Assembly: GCA_001802375.1 (NCBI GenBank)
Contig: MGXK01000119.1
Coordinates: 10,802 to 49,742 of the forward strand
Direction of reading: 5' to 3'
Source: Gammaproteobacteria bacterium RBG_16_51_14
GTDB taxonomy: Bacteria > Pseudomonadota > Gammaproteobacteria > Eutrophobiales > Eutrophobiaceae
Length of the DNA: 38,941 bases
In this document: one piece after another, positions 16,222-16,758 of the stretch
Numbering within the stretch: the first letter of the stretch is position 1
Layout: each line of letters opens with the position of its first letter
Program-made: the position numbers and the translations under genes
Notes under the pieces: model-generated
Database searches by the model: none
What the model saw: the letters and a program-made list of their open reading frames with translations, nothing else
What the model was told of the DNA's origin: nothing

Positions 16222-16222
16222 A

Positions 16223-16669
16223 ATGTCTATCCTGTTCCCATATCATGGTGTTATACGGGGTTCCCTTAAAGTACCTGAAGCACGTCTGATCTCTTGCTAT
16301 CATTTACCGGTACTGTTCAAATCGGATCCTGACGAAAATGAAGATGTATTATTTAAGGGTGGTCTGAATAATTCCGTACCCAGCCAGGGGGGTACCGGGG
16401 CCCTGCATTTTTCAGACCACGACAAAATCGCCTGGACAATTTCATCGGGAATGAAATTGGACATCCCGAAGGGATGCCGGGAAGGCGAATTACAGGGAGG
16501 TTATTCGTCAACGATTTTGAACAGTGCGCAAGCACTGGCCCGAAGGGCGCATACCATGGAGGGTATGCGTAAAAGCAAAAATGCGATTATTGCTTTGTCT
16601 CACATTTCAATGGCTTATCAACCATTGGAAAGGGTGGTGCCTCCACGCGCCGCTGAAACCATGAATTAA
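16223..16669 (+). CDS. Unrecognised ORF between recO and pdxJ
   Basis: I do not recognise this 148-residue product and see no domain, signal peptide or membrane segment. For it: the frame is open for 148 codons, the ATG lies 1 bp past the recO stop with AAGG 7 bp upstream, and codon choice looks like that of its neighbours. The C-terminal part (about residues 95-140) could be helical. Against it: the same DNA holds an unusual series of perfect hairpins from 16263 to 16646, which may mean the region works as RNA. In E. coli recO and pdxJ are adjacent with nothing between. The protein may be real, the RNA may be real, or both. Confidence 0.42.
   Translation: MSILFPYHGVIRGSLKVPEARLISCYHLPVLFKSDPDENEDVLFKGGLNNSVPSQGGTGALHFSDHDKIAWTISSGMKLDIPKGCREGELQGGYSSTILNSAQALARRAHTMEGMRKSKNAIIALSHISMAYQPLERVVPPRAAETMN
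16263..16646 (+). other. Hairpin-rich stretch, candidate structured RNA
   Basis: Perfect helices follow one another almost without gaps. CCCTTAAA 16263-16270 pairs with 16352-16359. AGTACC 16270-16275 pairs with 16309-16314. A 10-bp stem GTGGTCTGAA joins 16359-16368 to 16411-16420 and encloses GTACCC/GGGTAC (16376-16381/16390-16395). TCGCC/GGCGA (16428-16432/16484-16488) encloses a 9-bp hairpin (16437-16445/16451-16459, loop CGGGA) and CATCCC-GAA-GGGATG (16462-16476). Then come CAGTGC-GCAA-GCACTG (16522-16537, a GNRA loop on the plus strand), GCCC-GAA-GGGC (16538-16548), GCATACC/GGTATGC (16549-16555/16562-16568, loop ATGGAG), AAAGCAA/TTGCTTT (16572-16578/16590-16596) and CAATGG/CCATTG (16608-16613/16622-16627). 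Some are mutually exclusive by one base. No known RNA family was recognised. Confidence 0.4.
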
Positions 16670-16758
16670 TCCGGATATCCTTGGATAATATATCCACTGT
16701 AATTGTGTACTATTAGGGTTAGAATACCGCCTTTTTTTCAGACCAACTGACAGTTAAC

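Follow-up and report, generated by a model that had tools for sequence, protein, structure and literature searches.

A chain of hairpins in the recO-pdxJ gap

In the DNA analysed here (a stretch of 38,941 nucleotides, hereafter the window), the genes recO and pdxJ are separated by 537 bp (positions 16222-16758), and this gap is rich in perfect hairpins. A preliminary description, made from the sequence alone, counted at least ten perfect helices in the gap and read the hairpin chain as a structured RNA, either a cis element of the operon or a processed small RNA, that is possibly also translated as a 148-codon open reading frame (ORF). The question raised by the locus is therefore whether the chain belongs to the operon at all, and, if it does not, what it is and what its RNA may do.

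The helices were found where they had been described. They include a 10-bp stem (16359-16368 pairing with 16411-16420), a 9-bp stem at 16437-16459 with the loop CGGGA, and three abutting hairpins at 16522-16537 (loop GCAA), 16538-16548 and 16548-16569. Loop GGA triplets are present at 16448-16450, 16496-16498 and 16558-16560; the last had been located exactly, whereas the first had been given as 16447-16449, one base off. The proposed comparison of folding energy with dinucleotide-shuffled sequences also bore out the description, as the + strand of the 537 nt has a folding energy of -174.1 kcal/mol, where the shuffled sequences give -150.6 +/- 6.8 (z = -3.44), and none of 100 shuffled sequences was as stable. 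The energy alone does not tell the strand, because the - strand gave z = -3.27 in the same comparison. When the whole window was searched with Rfam, no family reached its gathering score, the CsrB/RsmZ family included, and nothing convincing appeared at E <= 10. A tRNA search found none in the window.

The segment is an inserted, dispersed repeat

In 17 relatives in which recO adjoins pdxJ, only about 25-180 bp separate the recO match from pdxJ, and no match to the 148-codon ORF was found in these recO-pdxJ loci. The genome under study (2.67 Mb) contains about 30 partial copies of the segment, 71-97% identical and on both strands; related genomes have weaker matches, one being present in 12 of the 40 genomes searched. 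Because the gaps of the relatives are short and the segment is repeated in its own genome, the hairpin chain is an inserted multicopy mobile repeat, neither a gene nor an operon-specific leader. The proposal of a cis element of the operon is not supported by the comparison of spacers that had been suggested for it, since the element is absent from the relatives and repeated elsewhere.

The ORF fares no better. It has no match in Pfam or among protein families, and when the copies are aligned in its frame, 1-nt indels and in-frame stops appear and nonsynonymous single changes far outnumber synonymous ones. As judged from these alignments, the frame is not conserved; it is spurious and open by accident. 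The idea of a pdxJ leader, or of a translated gene within a recO-pdxJ operon, which the position directly upstream of pdxJ and the open frame had seemed to favour, has in our view been largely refuted and is very improbable, given that the segment is a dispersed repeat that the relatives lack and that encodes no known protein family.

Anatomy of the composite

Comparison of the copies resolved the segment into an outer shell with two nested inserts. The features, with matches to our covariance model R1 (described below), are as follows.

16223-16669, + strand: 148-codon ORF, a by-product of the insertion and not a gene
16357-16680, + strand: outer shell, a copy of the MITE-like family A, delimited by comparison of copies
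16359-16420, + strand: left shell hairpin (arms 16359-16368 and 16411-16420, 10 bp), kept in about 20 copies
16423-16571, + strand: outer RrB/TLR-like RNA element (R1 match at 16511-16571, 28.9 bits)
16423-16430 and 16512-16519, + strand: split HP1 of the outer element, CAAAATCG pairing with CGATTTTG
16522-16537, 16538-16548 and 16548-16569, + strand: HP2, HP3 and HP4 of the outer element, which ends in GTA
16433-16509, + strand: inner RrB/TLR-like RNA element (R1 match), nested in the HP1 loop of the outer element
16437-16459 and 16484-16509, + strand: HP1 and HP4 of the inner element
16446-16450, + strand: loop CGGGA of inner HP1, with GGA at 16448-16450
16462-16476, + strand: HP2/HP3 region of the inner element, with CATCCC-GAA-GGGATG
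16493-16500, + strand: loop region of inner HP4, CAGGGAGG, matching the RsmA/CsrA motif within a hairpin loop
16555-16562, + strand: loop region of outer HP4, CATGGAGG, matching the RsmA/CsrA motif within a hairpin loop
16572-16631, + strand: shell hairpins H2 (AAAGCAAAAATGCGATTATTGCTTT) and H3 (ATTTCAATGGCTTATCAACCATTGGAA)
16655-16680, + strand: right shell end hairpin H5, decayed here and perfect elsewhere (GGAAACCCTGAATTAATCAGGGTTTCC)

The simplest copies of shell A (L036, L037, L039, L040 and L042) consist of five hairpins, H1-H5, in about 150-180 nt, and one copy (L043) has only H1 and H5. The ends of the shell are GGAAAGGTCTGAATAATTCC ... GGGTTTCC, and good copies are flanked by short A/T-rich repeats (TTA/TTA, TTAA/TTAA, TAA/TAA or TAT/TAT), which are irregular and 3-4 nt long; the flanks of the window copy have decayed. 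The left end occurs at 23 places with at most two mismatches, although at a few of them nothing else of the element is present. A scan of contigs of GTDB genomes with the left hairpin gave 0 matches, which suggests a narrow range for the shell. We regard shell A as a MITE-like hairpin element. An IS4-like gene in contig C137 was the sole candidate seen for its autonomous partner, and was rejected because its ends differ. Family B, which is unrelated to A, comprises about 25 copies (e.g. L099, L102 and L105) of a clean MITE of 140 bp that has GAACCTATCTCAAAATT as its inverted repeats and duplicates TA; one copy of family B (L108) contains yet another hairpin with the loop ATGGA.

Four copies of shell A (L030, L032, L034 and L035) have a four-hairpin block between H1 and H2 in which HP1 is uninterrupted, and some copies of family B have a related block at another, single site. 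A further block lies inside HP1 of the first one in the window, in L027-L029 and in the family B copies L031 and L033, and in the window this inner element has destroyed the HP1 loop of the outer element. Copies thus exist without either insert, with one and with both, and the inserts in both MITE families follow the same short site, CGA. Each MITE family has one insertion site; therefore, as far as the arrangement of the copies goes, the RNA element was probably captured once per family and then amplified.

A covarying RNA family

We scanned the contigs of GTDB genomes for exact matches to the first hairpin (CAAAATCGCCNGGAGCGATTTTG) and obtained at least 117 contig stretches, nearly all of them from Gammaproteobacteria by record title; a scan of IMG/VR with the RNA hairpin gave 0 matches. 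The consensus of the family is about 75 nt long and has four hairpins, namely HP1 (CAAAATCGC-CNGGA-GCGATTTTG), a variable HP2, HP3 (GCCC-GNA-GGGC) and HP4, which has a variable stem and the loop A(N)GGA, followed by the end GAGTA or GAGCA. The covariance model R1 was built from 31 GTDB copies and no E. coli sequence. In its 22-pair structure, 78 cells were changed on both sides against 23.7 +/- 4.2 in shuffled alignments, and the covariation score was 0.294 against 0.082 +/- 0.011 when shuffled and 0.017-0.077 when the structure was slid. Both-side changes occur in eight pairs, and the covarying stems are HP2 and HP4; HP1 was fixed by the search pattern and contributes no information to this test. 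In relatives found by DNA similarity, the HP1 stems also change in compensation around the loop CNGGA.

In the window, R1 matched the inner element at 45.2 bits (E = 1.5e-8 in 580 kb; 1.1e-11 in an unfiltered search of 451 bases), and the weaker score of the outer match goes with a first hairpin interrupted by the inner element. The genome has 27 copies, of which MITE B accounts for about 10 and shell A for about 8, and 2 are beside tRNA genes. The model found members in 81 of 185 Gammaproteobacteria genomes and also in many genomes from other classes of the phylum. One taxonomic family from another class of the same phylum (f187) is very rich in matches, with up to 17 per genome. In four other loci (L187, L195, L222 and L226) the element lies within a different dispersed palindrome, with TTTTCTTTGGACAAGCAAAGA before it and AAAGTAAC after it.

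Kinship to E. coli RrB and the tRNA-linked repeats

R1 also recognized known E. coli elements. On the RrB stretch between the two terminators of rrnB it scored 72.7 bits (E = 1.4e-17), on the four repeats of the tyrT operon 14.8-24.0 bits (the next best match being 1.5), and on the two repeats beside argQ 14.3 and 18.7 bits. Relatives of the element thus occur in rRNA and tRNA operons of E. coli. The tRNA-linked repeats (TLRs) of E. coli have been known since 1978 and have no agreed function, and their hallmark is a repeated 3' end of the upstream stable RNA (PMC8144298). Among 38 elements with a same-strand upstream tRNA or tmRNA, 16 have, 1-3 nt beyond their end, an 18-nt stretch identical to the 3' end of that RNA; allowing up to two mismatches raises the number to 22. 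Two tandem arrays behind a single tRNA gene (L202:1667-2098 and L199:6768-7212) have units of about 180 nt, each with a copy of the tRNA 3' end; the units of the former also have a terminator-like hairpin, and both arrays resemble the E. coli tyrT repeats. At L223:1727-1811 and L207:826-905 the element lies immediately downstream of a tmRNA gene, and after the first of these copies 17 of the 18 nt at the tmRNA 3' end recur.

The window elements have the same hairpin order and loops as E. coli RrA, RrB and RrF, which lie at the ends of rrnA, rrnB and rrnD (PMC8144298): the four hairpins come in order, three hairpin loops have GGA, and the RrB loops are CGGGA in HP1 and AGGAC in HP4. In contrast to these RNAs, the window copies are two, nested, and lie in a MITE within a protein operon and not behind a 5S rRNA gene, and they are not followed by the 18-19 nt identical to the 3' end of an upstream 5S rRNA or tRNA; many of their relatives do lie in tRNA or rRNA operons. 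Because the sequence and structure agree with RrA/B/F while the position (operon and repeated 3' end) does not, we call the window copies RrB/TLR-like elements residing in a MITE-like repeat and do not class them as strict TLRs. With the other E. coli TLRs, including the tyrT repeats or rttR (RtT, Rfam RF00391), the tRNA-linked relatives share the T-loop boundary GGTTCGA/.../ATCC. However, the tyrT copies lack GGA in the end hairpin (HP4), showing that GGA is not universal in the family, and the RtT covariance model gives the window only 14.3 bits against a gathering cut-off of 45. The identity of the window elements as members of the RrB/TLR-like RNA family is strongly supported.

Strand, base pairs and loops

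Several signals bear on whether the hairpins are kept as RNA or as DNA. Because the element copies are related, the cases in the strand, pair and loop counts are not independent of one another. Where a tRNA or tmRNA gene lies within 400 nt, 49 of 51 elements lie on the tRNA strand (one of the two exceptions is a marginal antisense match), a bias that is partly built in where the element sits inside a tRNA 3' copy. Of the elements with no tRNA nearby, 18 share their strand with the upstream gene and 6 lie on the opposite one, and the downstream genes are divided 17 to 17, the neighbour genes being long ORFs obtained by simple calling. The outer pair of HP3 is G-C in 36 copies, G-U in 25, A-U in 4 and A-C in 5, indicating that wobble pairs are tolerated chiefly on the strand of the element. 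HP4 has mismatches of G-U (3), A-C (0) and other kinds (2), too few for such an asymmetry test.

These observations weigh against the view that the chain is a purely selfish DNA hairpin element, moved by a REP/BIME-like or HUH/IS200-like enzyme, in which stems and loops are kept for recognition as single-stranded DNA and have no role as RNA. Like the REP/BIME and MITE repeats, the element is short, multicopy, palindromic, mosaic and non-coding; its high copy number, its nested modular insertion, the shared CGA site of the two MITE families and the presence of six Y1_Tnp genes in the genome would all suit such a mechanism. However, none of these six (IS200/RAYT-type) genes (L047-L052) is flanked by the hairpins studied here, as a REP/RAYT system would have them, and no cognate transposase was found for shell A. 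The excess of G-U over A-C and the bias relative to tRNA and upstream genes are signals of one strand, and the family member RrB of E. coli is an RNA that undergoes processing and binds both Hfq and CsrA (PMC8144298). Because of the strand-specific signals, we consider the selfish DNA-level reading less likely, and quite improbable. Covariation, tolerance of G-U pairs, sense orientation and kinship to the characterized small RNA RrB together uphold the structured RNA proposed at the outset.

The loop of HP4 is a further RNA-level feature. In the strongest hairpin after HP3, with no loop required, GGA is in or beside the loop in 84 of 101 cases, and 93 HP4 hairpins have 51 different stems; the loop CNGGA is likewise kept in related hairpins with different stems. 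Across hairpin loops in general, surveyed over 360 kb of the genome and over 100 kb from each of four relatives, no enrichment of GGA was seen, and the GGA-loop signal is confined to the RrB/TLR-like family. The main rival at the RNA level is that the hairpins, together with the repeated tRNA 3' end in trailers, are signals for processing or end protection, GGA being in the loops only incidentally. It has been proposed that RNase E acts in processing at the repeated 3' end (PMC8144298), and the position in tRNA trailers and gene 3' regions and the stable GNA and GCAA loops are consistent with this idea. We hold it to be unlikely, as it leaves unexplained why HP4 keeps the loop A(N)GGA while its stem varies.

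A possible link to CsrA

Features of CsrA sites are GGA in a loop and the motif CAGGA(U/A/C)G (PMC7652899), and an RsmA/CsrA motif has been quoted as CANGGANG (PMC4353343). Both HP4 loops of the window match the latter, and csrA is present in the genome. E. coli RrB is transcribed, processed and bound by Hfq; in vitro its GGA loops bind CsrA (at about 100 nM), and changing the GGAs abolishes the binding (PMC8144298). The resemblance of the GGA loops to CsrA/RsmA sites, which had been rated weak, is thereby strengthened. Note that the deletion or overexpression of RrA/B/F in E. coli has only small effects, and that the CsrA-binding subtype was regarded as the only one of its kind among TLRs, CsrA binding being considered unlikely for the tRNA-linked TLRs of E. 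coli (PMC8144298). A CsrA match was found in about 73 of the 81 genomes with the element and in 86 of the 104 without it, a difference that is not significant by the counts. Some element-bearing genomes have no CsrA match, among them G037, rated 100% complete, and G117, with 17 copies.

In the genome under study, csrA, tRNA-Ser, an RrB/TLR-like element and tRNA-Arg follow one another on one strand (G000:C137:50425-51208; L294, L129), and in four other genomes (G169, G149, G156 and G039) copies lie a few hundred bases downstream of csrA. This placement may reflect only the order of the csrA and tRNA genes.

With the CsrB/CsrC and RsmY/RsmZ decoys, the window composite has in common a chain of hairpins with loop GGA and the motifs cited above; it differs from them in that it is not a dedicated small RNA gene, has only two or three sites and is part of a mobile repeat.

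Proposed explanation

Kinship to RrB, the match of both HP4 loops to the motif and the presence of csrA in the genome led us to propose a role as CsrA decoys. The best explanation, to which we assign a probability of roughly 0.6, is that of a MITE-like element with nested GGA-loop RNA elements of the RrA/RrB/RrF subtype, whose transcribed copies would act as CsrA decoys or as a CsrA-responsive mRNA segment. In this explanation a MITE-like element of the genome acquired a TLR-family RNA element with GGA loops (the RrA/RrB/RrF subtype), within whose first hairpin a second copy lies. One such composite is present between recO and pdxJ in the sense orientation, so that a recO-pdxJ transcript would carry it. 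Its GGA loops, those of the two motif-bearing hairpins and of the inner HP1, may bind CsrA; CsrA binding by the window copy is predicted here by analogy with RrB. The transcribed copies would then most likely serve as small CsrA decoys or as a CsrA-responsive segment of the host mRNA, and the spread into protein operons would be a by-product of MITE movement and not of selection at the recO-pdxJ site.

Significance

Homologues of RrA/B/F have been reported only from Enterobacteriales (PMC8144298). In the openly accessible literature, where a single paper using the term tRNA-linked repeat was found, the GGA-loop type beyond this order, its covariation and its presence inside MITEs appear to be undescribed, and a search of papers for the literal sequence returned nothing relevant. 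R1 is a model absent from Rfam. The covarying family that it defines includes RrB, occurs in 81 of the 185 genomes of the class and extends to other classes. Its members often lie in tRNA trailers and, in the genome under study, mostly in two MITE families; this wide occurrence makes the function of TLRs testable by comparison.

More tentatively, and with more doubt than confidence, at least two unrelated MITE families (A and B) may have taken up an RrB-type decoy from stable-RNA operons and dispersed it among protein operons. Mobile DNA would then distribute CsrA sites and alter the CsrA network; on a wider scale, the GGA-loop TLRs of tRNA trailers might form a widespread, unrecognized layer coupling tRNA and rRNA transcription to CsrA across Pseudomonadota. 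The composite offers a route by which transposons could spread the sites of an RNA-binding protein, and it suggests that RNA decoys of the CsrA type can be spread around genomes by transposons.
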